NCBI GenBank assembly: GCA_905182985.1
Contig: CAJJDN010000074.1
Span: 325,323-389,322, forward strand
Source of the DNA: Paramecium sonneborni
Lineage: Eukaryota > Ciliophora > Oligohymenophorea > Peniculida > Parameciidae
Direction: 5' to 3'
Length of the DNA stretch: 64,000 nt
This document shows, piece by piece, positions 4,342-51,364 of the stretch (position 1 is the stretch's first letter; every line of letters begins with the position of its first letter). A program made the position numbers and the translations under genes. The notes beneath the pieces were generated by a model. It ran no database searches. It saw only the letters and a program-made list of their open reading frames with translations, and was not told the origin of the DNA.

Positions 4342-5596
4342 TCAAGCAATTCCTATCAAAGAATTGTATACCTTCATAAATAGAATAATCGCTTTATTCA
4401 ATGGATTTATAACATATGGTCTTAATCCTCTAGCTAGTGTGAACCATCCAATAGTTTTTCTTAATTTAGTCTTATATAATTTATCATTCTCTGCCATTTT
4501 CAAATGCTGTTCATATGATATTCTAGGAATACCCTCTTCTCCTAAAAAATTCTTTATCAATATATCAATATCTAAAATAGATTAATTGTATACTTTCGCT
4601 AAAAGACTTCTCTTCTATTTCTGTAATTAAGGGAGCATCTATCTAAAATTCTCTTAATAAACATATTGGAGATAAAATTGAAAAAACTATACCGAGTTTT
4701 GGAAAACTGAAATAAACATTTAAAAAATAGGATAATATAACTGAATAGCCTATTAAATATCCTATATAAATATGTAAATAATAAGGCAAATGATCTTAGT
4801 ATGGAATCTTTAATGATATATAACCTGTTGTTATATACACTGCATAAAGTAAATAATCGACGTGTTTAATTATTAATGAGATTATTGTATTTTCAGGCAA
4901 AATTATTACTAAAATGTCAAATAATGAAGTTTGAAGTAATAATAATAAACTGAAAAGTAAAGCTTACAAGGTTAATTTAATTTGATCAATTATAGTAGAG
5001 AATCCTACATTATTGTCTCTTTTTAAATTGTAAATAAAAAATTGTCTATTCTATTTCACATTTGTTTCATATTATATTGCTGTTTAAGTAATCTTTCCAA
5101 CATAAACCAATTATCGAATATTATTTTCTAGGTACAATAGTACAGGTATAATTTAAATCAACAATAATATCAGTTTGGGAAAAGATAATAATGACAAAAA
5201 ATATACAAGCAAGTCAATTAGAAAAATGATAGCTAATTTTATGCTTGCAAATTCTATAGCTTGTTTTAAATATCTTTTAATTTCAATACAACATTTCTCC
5301 TAAGGATCTAAAGCATACCATCTTATTCCTTTCATGAATTTAATGCTATCAAATAATCCATAAAGGAATAATATAGACTATGTTTTTATATATTTCATTT
5401 TAATTATATAAATGATTTTTTTTAATATTATGAATTCAGCATATTTTTTATTATATTTATAATAATATCTTAAATCTAACATTCTTATTTCCCTTTTAAT
5501 TTTATATTGTTGTTCATTTTCATATTTAATTGAAAAGTATATAATTTACTCAAAATAATTTTCAATCCAAAATTGATATAAAGAAATAAAACTCAT
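4342..5596 (-). CDS. EI24-like multi-pass membrane protein
   Basis: Read on the minus strand from ATG 5596-5594 to TGA at 4342, with one 22-nt intron (4572-4593): 410 residues. There are at least five hydrophobic segments. The central part, a Leu-rich helix followed by a polar YLLYAVY-type segment, a YQDHLPYYLHIYIGY motif and a hydrophobic stretch ending FSILSPICLL, follows the order of conserved blocks in the EI24/EPG-4 family. Those are ER membrane proteins acting in autophagy and calcium handling; the family call is from memory of the pattern. The frame stays open upstream to about 5836 without a convincing ATG, so an earlier start behind an intron is possible. Only the first ~90 codons reappear in the second contig copy (6630-6862). 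Confidence 0.6.
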
Positions 5597-6226
5597 TGGT
5601 TTATTAAATTTCGAGAAATAAAAAATTTGTTAAATAAAGACTTGAAATCCTAATATTTTTAAGAAAAAAAATATAGTAGAGATTTTAAAATGAAATAATT
5701 CAAATATTTTCAAAACAGAATGAATTTAGTAAAAATGTTTGGCTATTTTAATGTAAAATTATTATTATTAACACTTAATAAAATAAAATAATTAACAAAA
5801 TAAGTCAATCGAATGCAAAGAACCTAAGAGATTTGTTCATAAAATAATAATTTAATAGTAAAATAAAATTTAACCAAATAGAAAATAATTAAGTAATTGA
5901 AATAAAAAAGTAGATATTTCTTAATGTTATTATAATCTAAAGAATTGTAATGTATGCAATAAAATGAGAGTTGCAATTAATGGTTCATTTTTCCTAAAAG
6001 TTAAGGTAAGTACAAAAAACTTAAGGGAATAAGTTAGTAGAAGGCAATTTAAATTTTTGAATATAATTGGAAAAGGTAGATTTGGAAGAATTTGAAGAGT
6101 AAGAATAAAGAAGAATAAGAAATTATTTTCATTAAAAGAAATGTCAAAAAAAAAGTGTTATTTCAATTTTAAATGAGAATATTTCTTAGAATATATGCAT
6201 CATCCTTTTTTTGTTAATATGTGGTA
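5364..6226. repeat. duplicated contig end, copy 1 (left of N6629)
   Basis: This 863-bp segment recurs at 6630-7492 with a constant offset of 1266 and no length change. Copy 2 begins one base after the N at 6629. Copy 1 carries the 5' part of the EI24-like gene and the N-lobe of the decayed kinase. The pattern is what two overlapping but unmerged contigs would give. Confidence 0.9.
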
Positions 6227-6628
6227 AGCATTTTAGGATAGAGATAATTTATTTTTGATTATAGATTTATTGATTTGTGGTGATTAAGATTTCATTTAAG
6301 AAAGATGAGAAGATTTAGTGAAGCAACTAGTAAATAAGAATAATTATTAAGATAAAGTTTTTTTATTGCTTTTATATTATTGGCTTTAACTTATTAAAAT
6401 TAAAATGGGATTATTTAGAGAGATTTAAAACCACAAAATTTAGTTTAAGAGGAAAATGAATACATGAGATTAATAGATTTGTGTATAGCCAGGATAAATA
6501 AAGGAAATAAGATGTGTAGATAATACTTCAGGAACACTTGGATATATGGGAATACCAGAAGTTATGTGTAGAATGGATCATAGTTGTGGCTAAGCGTTAG
6601 CAAATTAATTAACGCCTTGTCAGTGATA
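5964..6628 (+). pseudogene. decayed STK32/AGC-like protein kinase, copy 1
   Basis: Kinase subdomains can be followed in order but only by changing frame. The glycine loop GKGRFGRI is followed by in-frame TGA where Trp is usual. LKEMSKKK supplies the Lys. The LEYMHHPFF helix lies after another TGA. The DLL..GDLRFHL block needs a one-base shift. The catalytic loop reads QRDLKPQN (His lost), DFG reads DLC, and the activation segment SGTLGYMG is in yet another frame. The order and the DLLxGGDLRFHL signature resemble the STK32/YANK group of AGC kinases. The copy runs into the N at 6629. So many breaks together argue for a pseudogene and not for sequencing error alone. It is absent as an intact gene anywhere in the window. 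Confidence 0.75.
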
Positions 6629-6629
6629 N
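6629..6629. other. assembly gap (single N)
   Basis: One ambiguous base joins sequence ending in cagtgat-a to a restart of the 863-bp segment first seen at 5364. It marks a scaffold join of undefined length, not a real one-base gap. Confidence 0.9.
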
Positions 6630-7492
6630 AGGAATAATATAGACTATGTTTTTATATATTTCATTTTAATTATATAAATGATTTTTTTTAATATTATGAA
6701 TTCAGCATATTTTTTATTATATTTATAATAATATCTTAAATCTAACATTCTTATTTCCCTTTTAATTTTATATTGTTGTTCATTTTCATATTTAATTGAA
6801 AAGTATATAATTTACTCAAAATAATTTTCAATCCAAAATTGATATAAAGAAATAAAACTCATTGGTTTATTAAATTTCGAGAAATAAAAAATTTGTTAAA
6901 TAAAGACTTGAAATCCTAATATTTTTAAGAAAAAAAATATAGTAGAGATTTTAAAATGAAATAATTCAAATATTTTCAAAACAGAATGAATTTAGTAAAA
7001 ATGTTTGGCTATTTTAATGTAAAATTATTATTATTAACACTTAATAAAATAAAATAATTAACAAAATAAGTCAATCGAATGCAAAGAACCTAAGAGATTT
7101 GTTCATAAAATAATAATTTAATAGTAAAATAAAATTTAACCAAATAGAAAATAATTAAGTAATTGAAATAAAAAAGTAGATATTTCTTAATGTTATTATA
7201 ATCTAAAGAATTGTAATGTATGCAATAAAATGAGAGTTGCAATTAATGGTTCATTTTTCCTAAAAGTTAAGGTAAGTACAAAAAACTTAAGGGAATAAGT
7301 TAGTAGAAGGCAATTTAAATTTTTGAATATAATTGGAAAAGGTAGATTTGGAAGAATTTGAAGAGTAAGAATAAAGAAGAATAAGAAATTATTTTCATTA
7401 AAAGAAATGTCAAAAAAAAAGTGTTATTTCAATTTTAAATGAGAATATTTCTTAGAATATATGCATCATCCTTTTTTTGTTAATATGTGGTA
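6630..7492. repeat. duplicated contig end, copy 2 (right of N6629)
   Basis: This matches 5364-6226 along its whole length. It diverges right after the shared gtggTA: copy 1 continues into the kinase middle, copy 2 jumps to C-lobe sequence. The junction lies at a TA dinucleotide. Confidence 0.9.
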
Positions 7493-21013: not shown

Positions 21014-23056
21014 TCAAAGTGTTAACATTTTCTCTCCTTTCTTAAAAATTCTTTCTTAAGATTATTAACTTTAAAGACCTAAAATCTCATTCATTTCCTC
21101 TTCTGATAATTTTGTTTTATTATAAATAGATGTATATTTTTATTTTTATTTTGCTTATTTAATGATTGGTTTAGTAGAAATTGATTTTTTTTTCTTGAAA
21201 TCTTAATTTCTTTTTGTTTCCAATATCTATTATCTTTTTCTTGTTCTAATTGCATATGTCTAAAGATTTGGAGGTTCATCAAGAACTTATATTATTTCAT
21301 TATTTTTGTTTACACCTGATTCAATCTATTAAATTTATTAAATTTGTGTTTATATTTTTTTTTTGTTAAATTTTACTTTATTAATTTTAGACATATTAAA
21401 ATTGATTTATTAAATTGAATTTTTTGATTAATCTTAAACAATAATAGATTTTTGATTTAATTTTAGATCTTATTTATTATTTAATTATTATTCATTTGCT
21501 TCTTTTTCTTCTTCTTAAATGTAAGTTTTTTACTTGAGTACATTTTCTATATTGGATGTAGAACTTTCTTTAATTGATTAAGGACTAGTAGGTTTTTTAT
21601 TTTTTGATTATTTAATTTTAGCAATACATTTATTATTTTATAATTCTGATTAGGAACAATAATGATAGGAACAATTAATTTTTTATTAAGAGGATAGAAT
21701 AAGTTATAAAATGTTAATATTATATTTACATTAGACTTAATAGTATTTAATTTTGTCACATTTTAAACAAAAGACTTTTTATTAATATTTATAACAACAT
21801 AAAAATAGTTCTTCTTTACATTCATTACAAAAGCAATAATTTCTAATTGAATAATTTATATCAATAGAGTATATTTTCTTTTTATCCTAAAATTCTTAAA
21901 TTGCTTCTAATTCTTATGTAAGAAATTCTTAAAGATAAATCTTTAATTGTTCATTAGGGTGATGAATAAAAATATCTAAAAATAGATTTTTAAAAGGAAG
22001 TTGTGATTTAATTTAATATTAAATGTTAATTTTTTATCTCTTTATGATTTATTAATATGAATATGAATTCATAGCTAAAAAACTCCAACCAGTAGTAATA
22101 GTAGTAGATAATGATTCAATTTAATAAAAAGATCCTGCTCCTAAAATAATAAGATCTCCTGGTTTTTAAATAAATCTCTTATAAGGTATATCATATTTCT
22201 TTAAAAGTTCTCTTTTTAAATAATGATTACCTTCTTATAGAATAAATTAATTTTCATTTTAAAATAACTTTTCTATATTTTCAGAATCTATAACAATCCA
22301 TAAACAATTTCCAGGTCCATGATTTAAACTAAGTAAATTAACTGCTCCAGATTCTTACTTTAATCCTTTCCAACTTCCTGGAGAAAGAATATTAAGTTAA
22401 AGTTAATTAATATTTTAAATTTTGGTTCTTAAATAACTTAATCCATCTTCTTTTAGAAAAGATTAAGGTAAATTTTCATATAATTTAAATGACTCTTCTT
22501 CCCAATTTTCAATTGATAAATCAAATAAACATAATAATTTATTTGGATTATATTACTTATTTTTATAAAAGAAATCGATTGGATTCGATATATATTCAAT
22601 ATATTTGGATAAATTCATTGAAAAACTTGATTTTTCTGTATTCTCTTAATTTATTTTTAGTTACTAAGTTAATATTACTGATTCCTAACCATGATTATGT
22701 TTTATATTTTATAATCTAAAGTATCCTCTATTTAATTGGTCCAACACATCTTATGGGAATTCCCATAAAAATACAGATTGATCTACCCATTCTGATATAG
22801 GTAAATGAAATCTCTCAAGAGGGTCATTAATTTTTTAAGGTTAAGTGTTATTATACAAATCTAAATAAGAATCTAAAACCTCTTTAAATTTAGGTTGATT
22901 TTCTTATTTGTCATATTATTACAATAAGTTCTCAATATTAATTTACTCCAAAAGTTCTTTTTCTTAAGAAGTTACTTAATAATGAAGATTAACAAATTCC
23001 GCAAAAAGGTTCATGTTATATTTTATTTTGTTTTGTTAATCAATTTTTATGATCAT
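21014..23056 (-). CDS. JmjC (KDM6-like) protein, apparently lacking iron ligands
   Basis: An intronless frame from ATG 23056-23054 (or in-frame ATG 23014) to TGA 21014-21016, 680 residues. Residues ~100-330 follow the JmjC fold of KDM6/UTX proteins: a P226-G-S block, NHGPGN at 246-251, then P299-G-D-L-I-I and GAGSFYQ, then GWSF. Aligning these blocks with KDM6, the HxE iron pair becomes K233-Q-E235 and the distal His becomes Tyr311, so 2-oxoglutarate-dependent demethylation looks lost. A Cys-rich patch (C408, C410, C413, then CC and CLKC) follows, as the zinc module does in KDM6. The C-terminal third is Lys/Gln-rich. It would probably act in the nucleus as a reader or scaffold. Ligand loss is inferred from hand alignment. 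Confidence 0.7.
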
Positions 23057-23864
23057 ATTAAAATAAAAAACAAAAAAAAAAGAACTCTTAAATTTAGGCA
23101 AATCCTATCAAATAATCAGTCTTTTCCAATACTTCATTTCTCTATTTGTCTATTATTGAAATGAAACAATTCAATATAATTAGATAAACTAATTCACTTA
23201 ATGTATAATATTAGATAATATTTACTTTCATTATCATCTTAATAAATTACATTATATACTTTAAGATTTAGTCAGGAAATCATTATAACAGATTTAAACA
23301 ATATCAAAATAATTTTTTAAATTGTTCTTACAACTAAAACAGAACAAAAAAAGAAACACACATTTTCTTCTCATATCTTTACCTGTTTAAAATGAAATTT
23401 ATTCTTTCATAGAACATAATATTGGTTTTATAAATTTTCTTTATAGGTGGAATCTCTTGCACTCATTTTTAAATAAACAAGTTAGGTTCTTTTCATATTG
23501 GGGTAATCAATTATTTTTTATATTTGCAAAAACTAATGTTTGCCCTTAATAATTTTAATTTTATTTTTATTTTTCAATAAATTAAGAGAATTGTTTCATA
23601 ATTGTGTTATCCATTAAATTAAGTAACAAGTTTCAAATCTCATGAATAATCCATATATATTTGTAACTTAATGGATGGTATTGGTAATACTTTTATAATT
23701 TAAATTAAATATTATCAGAATTGAATTGAATTATTTTTCTAATAAAAATTTATTTATATTTGGAATTTTTTCTATCAAATGTTAATATGTTAAAGCACTT
23801 TAATTAGAATTCTAATTAGAAAATAATTTGAACTGGAAATTAATTATCTTATGAAAACTTGTAT
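22900..23864. repeat. duplicated contig end, copy 1 (left of N23865)
   Basis: 965 bp recur at 23866-24887 with offset 966. The two copies agree by eye except for a 57-bp insertion in copy 2. The segment holds the JmjC start region and its upstream AT-rich DNA. In 23057-23864 I see no convincing gene: minus-strand frames are open in patches but interrupted by TGA. Confidence 0.9.
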
Positions 23865-23865
23865 N
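23865..23865. other. assembly gap (single N)
   Basis: One N separates the two copies of a near-identical ~1-kb segment, again the mark of two overlapping contigs placed end to end. Confidence 0.9.
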
Positions 23866-24887
23866 TTTCTTATTTGTCATATTATTACAATAAGTTCTCA
23901 ATATTAATTTACTCCAAAAGTTCTTTTTCTTAAGAAGTTACTTAATAATGAAGATTAACAAATTCCGCAAAAAGGTTCATGTTATATTTTATTTTGTTTT
24001 GTTAATCAATTTTTATGATCATATTAAAATAAAAAACAAAAAAAAAAGAACTCTTAAATTTAGGCAAATCCTATCAAATAATCAGTCTTTTCCAATACTT
24101 CATTTCTCTATTTGTCTATTATTGAAATGAAACAATTCAATATAATTAGATAAACTAATTCACTTAATGTATAATATTAGATAATATTTACTTTCATTAT
24201 CATCTTAATAAATTACATTATATACTTTAAGATTTAGTCAGGAAATCATTATAACAGATTTAAACAATATCAAAATAATTTTTTAAATTGTTCTTACAAC
24301 TAAAACAGAACAAAAAAAGAAACACACATTTTCTTCTCATATCTTTACCTGTTTAAAATGAAATTTATTCTTTCATAGAACATAATATTGGTTTTATAAA
24401 TTTTCTTTATAGGTGGAATCTCTTGCACTCATTTTTAAATAAACAAGTTAGGTTCTTTTCATATTGGGGTAATCAATTATTTTTTATATTTGCAAAAACT
24501 AATGTTTGCCCTTAATAATTTTAATTTTATTTTTATTTTTCAATAAATTAAGAGAATTGTTTCATAATTGTGTTATCCATTAAATTAAGTAACAAGTTTC
24601 AAATCTCATGAATAATCCATATATATTTGTAACTTAATGGATGGTATTGGTAATACTTTTATAATTTAAATTAAATATTATCAGAATTGAATTGAATTAT
24701 TTTTCTAATAAAAATTTATTTATATTTGGAATTTTTTCTATCAAATGTTAATATACACTATGTAAAATATTATTAAAGTTTTATATTTTAATTTTATATT
24801 AATGACAATATGTTAAAGCACTTTAATTAGAATTCTAATTAGAAAATAATTTGAACTGGAAATTAATTATCTTATGAAAACTTGTAT
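23866..24887. repeat. duplicated contig end, copy 2, carrying a 57-bp insertion
   Basis: Same as 22900-23864 plus 57 bp at 24752-24808. It contains the first ~52 codons of the JmjC frame (start at 24022 by the offset) before the gap, so this is not a second gene. Downstream it runs directly into the casein kinase 1 gene. Confidence 0.9.
24752..24810. mobile_element. putative retained internal eliminated sequence (IES), 57 bp
   Basis: Copy 1 reads gttaatatgttaaag. Copy 2 has 57 extra bases there, and a TA direct repeat at both ends collapses to one TA in copy 1. The left end reads TATACACT and the right end, on the opposite strand, TATTGTCA. Compared with the Paramecium IES consensus TAYAGYNR, the right end differs only at the fourth base and the left end keeps TAYA. 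A length of 57 bp is in the range of short IESs. The repeat is actually AATAT, so the exact TA is ambiguous. The insertion is non-coding and lies upstream of two genes. Confidence 0.7.
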
Positions 24888-24947
24888 ATGATATAATAAT
24901 ATTGAGATATTAAATAAAACATATATAATAATTAAAAAAAGCATTTA

Positions 24948-25887
24948 ATGCAAAAAATTGGATAAAACTTTGAGTTAAAAAAAAAGTTAGGTTCAGGTGC
25001 TTTTGGGGATATCTATTTAGGAGTGAATACAAAGAATAATATAGAAGTAGCTATAAAATTAGAACCTATATCTTCTTAATGTCCGTAATTGAGATATGAA
25101 CATGAGATTTATAAAAGATTGTTAGCTGATAATTAAAGTATAGATAGAGGGATACCACATGTTTATTACACATCAGAAGAAGGTGGTTATACGTTTATGG
25201 TTATGGATTTATTGGGAGCATCTTTAGAAGAAATATTTGTTTCGAAGAAAAAGAAATTTTCTTTAAAAACCGTTGTTATGATTGGATTACAATTTTTAGA
25301 GAGGATAGAATTCATTCATTCTAAAGGTATAATACATAGAGATATCAAACCTGATAATTTTTTGATTGGAAAACTTAATAAATAAAATAAAATATATATT
25401 CTAGACTTTGGATTAGCTAAACGATTTGTAAAAGAGAATGGTCATATTCCATATAGAGAATCAAAGACTCTGACTGGAACAGCTAGATATTGTAGTTTAA
25501 ATACTCATTTAGGTGTAGGTAAGATAATTTAAGAAATATAAATTAGAATAAAGTAGAAGAGATGATATTGAATGTATGGCATATGTACTATTTTATTTTT
25601 TAAAATCGACTTTACCTTGGTAAAATATGAGAGCAAAAAATAAAAGAGAAAAGTACTTTCATATTATTTTTATTTTTAGATATGAAAGAATTATGGAAAA
25701 GAAGATGACAACTACTTATGATGAATTATGCAAAGGTGTTCCAAAAGAATTTGGTTTGATTTTAAAACATGCAAGAAACTTAGAATTTGAAGAAGAACCT
25801 AATTATAAATATTTGAGAGGCTTATTTGAAAATATATGTTCATAGGAAAGAATTAATGTTGATTATTAGTTTGATTGGTGTAAATGA
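24948..25887 (+). CDS. casein kinase 1 family protein kinase, 294 residues
   Basis: Two introns (25519-25546, 25653-25679) leave 885 nt. The CK1 hallmarks are present in order: [11 protein letters not shown] loop, [39 protein letters not shown], and [14 protein letters not shown] followed by SRRDDIE in place of APE. The length is close to a bare catalytic domain with about ten extra residues, so no regulatory tail is present. The tandem HLGV-E joint is correct only after intron 1 is spliced. CK1 enzymes phosphorylate primed Ser/Thr sites and are greatly expanded in Paramecium. All catalytic residues are intact. Confidence 0.95.
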
Positions 25888-50697: not shown

Positions 50698-50783
50698 AAT
50701 AATAAAATTAAATTATATTTATACTTATCGTAATAGAAGAGCTCATATTTTTTGAGTTAAATATTAAAAAAATATAAAGAGTT

Positions 50784-50854
50784 GCGTCTATCGGGACTCG
50801 AACCCGACCTAAATGCTTGGAAGGCATTCGTACGAACCTCTATACTATAGACGC
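50784..50854 (-). tRNA. tRNA-Gly (anticodon UCC), copy 1
   Basis: A 71-nt cloverleaf on the minus strand. The acceptor is GCGTCTA/TAGACGC. The D stem is GTAT/GTAC. The anticodon stem AATGC/GCATT bears the loop CTTCCAA, giving anticodon UCC for GGA. The T stem is TCGGG/CCCGA with loop TTCGAGT. A T-rich tract just 3' (read on the minus strand) fits a Pol III terminator. Confidence 0.95.
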
Positions 50855-51038
50855 TTGACTAATAAATTTATAATCTAATTTTTTATGTAAGGTATGTTAA
50901 AAAAATTAATAAATGAATTTCTATATTGAAGAAAGAATGTTAATTAATCTATACTAATTTGCTATTTTAATTTTTAGAATAAATTAAGTTAAATAAATAA
51001 AACTTACTTAATCTGATATATTAAAAAAATAAAAAGTT

Positions 51039-51109
51039 GCGTCTATCGGGACTCGAACCCGACCTAAATGCTTGGAAGGCATTCGTACGAACCTCTATAC
51101 TATAGACGC
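51039..51109 (-). tRNA. tRNA-Gly (UCC), copy 2
   Basis: Same 71-nt sequence as the copy at 50784, spaced exactly 255 bp from it, with near-identical flanks on both sides. Confidence 0.95.
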
Positions 51110-51293
51110 TTGACTAATAAATTTATAATCTAATTTTTTATGTAAGGTTTGTTAAAAAAATTAATAAATGAATTTCTATATTGAAGAAAGAATGTTAATT
51201 AATCGATACTAATTTGCTATTTTAATTTTTAGAATAAATCAAGTTAAATAAATAAAACTTACTTAATCTGATATATTAAAAAAATAAAAAGTT

Positions 51294-51364
51294 GCGTCTA
51301 TCGGGACTCGAACCCGACCTAAATGCTTGGAAGGCATTCGTACGAACCTCTATACTATAGACGC
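51294..51364 (-). tRNA. tRNA-Gly (UCC), copy 3
   Basis: Third 71-nt copy at the same 255-bp period. No difference from the other two within the gene. Confidence 0.95.

Follow-up and report, generated by a model that had tools for sequence, protein, structure and literature searches.

Why does about 1 kb of the Paramecium sonneborni assembly stand twice in succession, the second time with 57 additional base pairs? The two segments lie in a window of 64,000 nucleotides (contig CAJJDN010000074.1 of assembly GCA_905182985.1, positions 325,323 to 389,322 of the forward strand; coordinates below are those of the window), and the additional 57 bp stand upstream of both a JmjC-domain gene and a casein kinase 1 (CK1)-like gene. 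Alignment of segments 22900-23864 and 23866-24887 gave two mismatch-free blocks (884 and 81 bp), and the sole difference was the 57 bp, present in the second copy only. TA dinucleotides stand at 24752 and 24809 in the longer copy versus a single TA at 23786-23787 in the shorter one. Both observations bear out the original prediction, made from the letters of this stretch, that the copies match except for an insertion whose flanking TA repeat collapses to one TA. As argued below, the insert is probably an internal eliminated sequence (IES) retained in part of the macronuclear copies. The features concerned are as follows.

22900-23864, no strand: copy A, without the insert, the last part of the left contig; matches copy B letter by letter in both blocks
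23786-23787, no strand: single TA at the copy A junction; left of the insert, copy A positions equal copy B positions minus 966
23865, no strand: lone n at the contig join, between copies A and B
23866-24887, no strand: copy B, with the insert, start of the right contig; delimited by alignment to copy A
24752-24808, no strand: insert of 57 bp (counting a single TA), probably a weak IES; 10.5% GC; ends TATACACT / TATTGTCA
24809-24810, no strand: right flanking TA, read from the sequence

What does the insert itself look like? It begins with TATACACT on the left and, read on the other strand, with TATTGTCA on the right. Without it the junction reads CAAATGTTAATATGTTAAAG; with it, TA is followed by TACACT on one side and GACAA by TA on the other. 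Five bases, AATAT, are common to both ends, so that the TA register is one among several possible alignments, although AATAT holds one TA only. As in Paramecium IESs, a TA is found at both ends and one TA is left in the short form. The insert is non-coding and, as far as the search reaches, single copy: a 62-bp query (the insert plus 5 flanking bases) matched only its own place in the genome at E values up to 10, with a caveat for common words, and membership of a mobile IES family was set aside on this result. A search of 22500-25300 for tandem repeats, which could have slipped, found none at a score of 40.

We then asked whether the repeated kilobase is a duplication in the genome. It is a contig overlap, an assembly artefact, since a lone n stands between the copies, copy B is cut inside the JmjC gene, and the lone-n joins that we read behave alike. 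These joins numbered 12: 11 in 274 kb of this genome (266,942 bases other than N), which were not chosen at random, and one on scaffold C88. At all 12 (on C74, C1 and C88), sequence to the left of the n recurs to its right. Plain overlaps of 1111-1925 bp, free of any difference, account for seven, two of which leave out the base with which the right piece begins; the C88 join shows no difference in its 482 visible bp. Two joins on C1 (C1:40396 and 41715) have 1020 and 1318 identical bp in common with one substitution, in a less simple arrangement. Of the remaining two, one (at 6629 of the window) branches after a TA and the other, at 23865, is the insert site. At 11 joins the repeated sequence totals 13,163 bp, or 4.9% of the sampled bases. 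The lone n is presumably how SSpace writes a negative gap. The macronuclear assemblies were reportedly built with Newbler at 99% minimal identity, scaffolded with SSpace and closed with GapCloser (PMC8354472), a pipeline that fits overlaps left unmerged. The present assembly comprises 91.5 Mb in 289 contigs; the published description gives P. sonneborni an 82-Mb constitutive assembly plus 10-16 Mb of variable regions (PMC8354472).

The two C1 joins (L019) deserve a separate description. Three successive pieces have 1020-1318 identical bp in common; upstream of the common part there is one substitution and then sequence absent from the left piece, so that this is no plain overlap.

On the basis of these results, is the insert an IES? 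Taken alone, the sequence evidence is modest and no single item is strong. A random 57-bp indel can be written as TA-bounded in 6.6% of cases, or 7.5% in this intergenic stretch. The insert has 10.5% GC versus 18.3% in the flanks, and 6.6% of 852 overlapping 57-mers from the flanks are equally AT-rich. Its size agrees with the prediction of a short IES: 57 bp lies 1-2 bp from the third peak of the published IES size distribution, at 55-56 bp, and the length of at least 26 bp on peaks of ~10-bp periodicity thus fits weakly, about a quarter of lengths being as close. One end of the two, the right, is TATTG, which is described as the most frequent end among P. tetraurelia IESs with a retention score above 0.2 after DCL2/3 knockdown.

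Published rates carry the case for a weak IES. TA-bounded insertions or deletions (TA-indels) are put at 1.4e-6 per site per generation versus 4e-12 for ordinary indels, rates that make the excision machinery a far likelier source than ordinary indels. In P. tetraurelia, 689 of 739 residual TA-indels are reported to lie on known IESs (PMC3464196). Weak IESs, defined by over 10% retention in the wild type, are given as on average 5.4% of intergenic IESs versus 0.7% of those in genes (PMC8354472). The same source estimates about 85,000 IESs in the 82 Mb of P. sonneborni and, in its introduction, places 80% of IESs within genes. Assuming that 20-30% are intergenic, we computed from these rates an expectation of 0.7-1.1 weak intergenic IESs per 64 kb, which makes such an element ordinary here too, at about one per window.

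A retained weak IES, incompletely removed across the macronuclear copies and so seen as a residual TA-indel, agrees with the TA boundaries and their reduction to one TA, with the length and AT-richness, with a location between genes and a TATTG end, and with how frequent weak IESs are reported to be in intergenic DNA; we assign it a probability of roughly 0.75. The prediction that germline DNA was left in part of these copies is thus upheld as the best reading. The 57 bp would then belong to the P. sonneborni germline, in the upstream region common to the JmjC and CK1 genes. As the macronucleus develops, the PiggyMac complex would cut at both TAs, and joining of the ends would leave one TA. 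Some chromosome copies would escape this, giving a macronucleus with both forms. The assembler, which required 99% identity, would have been unable to merge them, and the scaffolder would have set both readings end to end with one n. That one assembly of this species holds both forms, with identical flanks and TA boundaries and in overlapping contigs, is observed; what we infer is the presence of the insert in the germline, its excision by PiggyMac, the coexistence of both forms in a single nucleus, and the insert as cause of the contig break at 23865.

Several observations weigh against a weak IES. Because of the AATAT microhomology, the TA boundary is weak evidence against a microhomology deletion. 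The ends had been called close to the consensus TAYAGYNR, and while the end sequences are as predicted, that wording was generous: the left end, TATAC, matches at 2 of 5 informative positions and lacks the consensus G, and the right end matches at 4 of 5. The same consensus total was reached by 12.5% of 4337 random TA...57...TA segments from 266 kb of the genome, and 7.3% had at least 4 matches at one end and at least 2 at the other; the IES end consensus is itself described as loose (PMC6143343). Lone-n joins are not generally caused by IESs, as most of the other joins show no such indel, and the idea that they mark IES sites in general was dropped. Finally, the paralogous locus on scaffold C88 is silent on the ancestral state of the insert. 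Similarity of the insert to C88 was at chance: of 500 shuffles 97% scored as high, as did 79% of 651 AT-rich pieces and, in another test, 42% of 800 pieces. The windows beside the insert were also at chance (34% and 16%). Dating the insert by this paralogue was given up, the insert region not being alignable there.

Could the excision machinery have acted on something other than an IES? In a cryptic excision, the 57 bp would be ordinary macronucleus-destined DNA and the short form the machinery's error at two IES-like TAs. The class is a described one, with 1090 low-frequency versus 739 residual TA-indels in the P. tetraurelia account (PMC3464196); the mediocre ends of the insert fit it, and at 6629 the copy without sequence at the TA seems to be missing DNA that five paralogues retain. 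However, the cryptic excisions in print are most frequent at 26-30 bp, and excision of a TATTG quasi-IES is reported as never observed, a statement that concerns perfect inverted TATTG pairs, whereas one end is TATTG here. We regard a cryptic excision as unlikely, though ahead of the other alternatives. Alternatively, the 57 bp may be part of a longer IES with an internal TA used as boundary. According to the same account, 134 of 689 residual TA-indels (19.4%) are shorter than their IES (PMC3464196), but the assembled flanks hold no pointer to further sequence, and we find this explanation improbable.

Equally improbable, taken together, are an allelic or strain difference, a PiggyMac-independent deletion at the AATAT microhomology, and slight contamination of the macronuclear library by germline reads. 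The deletion has in its favor the 5 bp at the junction: at least 5 bp are common to both ends in 1.9% of random deletions, and of deletions so marked 64% also look TA-bounded (57% with exactly 5 bp). Autogamous lines are homozygous, which argues against an allelic difference, and diverged alleles would not be expected to lack any substitution in 965 bp; ordinary indels are also orders of magnitude rarer than TA-indels, as noted above. If the ~1 kb were really duplicated in tandem, with a 57-bp indel in one copy, the head-to-tail copies in the scaffold would be accounted for. We rejected this duplication and leave it almost no probability, given the lone n exactly between the copies, the start of copy B inside the JmjC gene, the zero mismatches and the sequence repeated across the n at 12/12 joins.

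A retained weak IES has counterparts in print. The residual TA-indels of P. tetraurelia (Arnaiz 2012, PMC3464196) are likewise described as TA-bounded presence or absence of a short sequence between macronuclear copies, in assembly data; they belong to another species, and the present site is known from two contigs rather than from reads or germline. The weak IESs of P. aurelia species (Sellis 2021, PMC8354472) include this species and, judging by pipeline and size, very likely this assembly. They are given as commonest in intergenic DNA, where our insert lies as well. Cryptic excisions, as described (PMC4132734), also yield a TA-bounded two-form site from the excision machinery, but there the short form is the error, whereas at the present site the error more probably lies in the longer form.

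The genes on either side are the following.

21014-23014, minus strand: JmjC-domain gene, 666 aa in the ciliate code, start codon at 23014; Pfam PF02373, 1.8e-10; protein P0001
23866-23980, minus strand: second, truncated reading of the start of the JmjC gene, cut by the n, start codon repeated at 23980
24947-25565, plus strand: CK1-like gene, first open stretch, ATG at 24947; Pfam Pkinase, 1.1e-26

Copy B begins inside the JmjC gene and therefore repeats only its first codons. The insert lies between the two genes, as predicted, with the CK1-like ATG 136 bp downstream of its right TA. The 38 best PDB sequence matches of the CK1-like gene are all CK1-type kinases (top 7.7e-61). The nearest named relative of the JmjC protein is P0002, a P. 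sonneborni protein at NCBI that is 76% identical and is encoded in full, letter for letter, on C88, which identifies the genome as that of P. sonneborni. On C88 the JmjC and CK1 genes stand in the same order, and much of the DNA between them can be aligned as far as about 24721, the insert region not. The insert stands 136 bp upstream of the CK1 start codon in a divergent promoter region; its retention state might be inherited via the maternal macronucleus and alter CK1 or JmjC expression, a heritable somatic switch. We consider this highly speculative and very improbable. A literature search on a connection of IESs with mating type and promoters yielded one conference report.

The other branching join of the window offers a different picture. 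Around the lone n at 6629 (5363-7492), the copies are identical over 863 bp and then diverge immediately past a TA, at 6226 in the left copy and 7492 in the right. Missing from the latter are about 443 bp of a kinase-like gene that are present in the C88 paralogue, and this segment is kept in line in 5/5 paralogue loci compared (L039, L040, L041, L043 and L044). For that reason, the site looks like a loss of macronucleus-destined kinase-like sequence at a TA, one boundary only being in the assembly. In the left copy, 6227-6628 aligns to C88 as kinase-like sequence with a 4-bp insertion and a 2-bp deletion, and therefore looks like a decaying gene. Elsewhere in the window (50783-51364, minus strand) stand three tRNA-Gly(tcc) genes; their spacing of exactly 255 bp suggests a tandem array.

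Incomplete IES excision in Paramecium is known and fairly common, and both residual TA-indels and weak IESs are already in print. If our reading is true, the locus adds one more weak IES and leaves knowledge of excision unchanged; it would be useful mainly as a reminder about the data. Lone-n joins in this assembly each double about a kilobase, and on this reading some conceal two-form excision sites. If the sampled joins are typical, several Mb of the assembly would be false duplication and some gene models would be doubled. Moreover, an IES kept in the reference may escape catalogues that are built on germline sequence absent from that reference.
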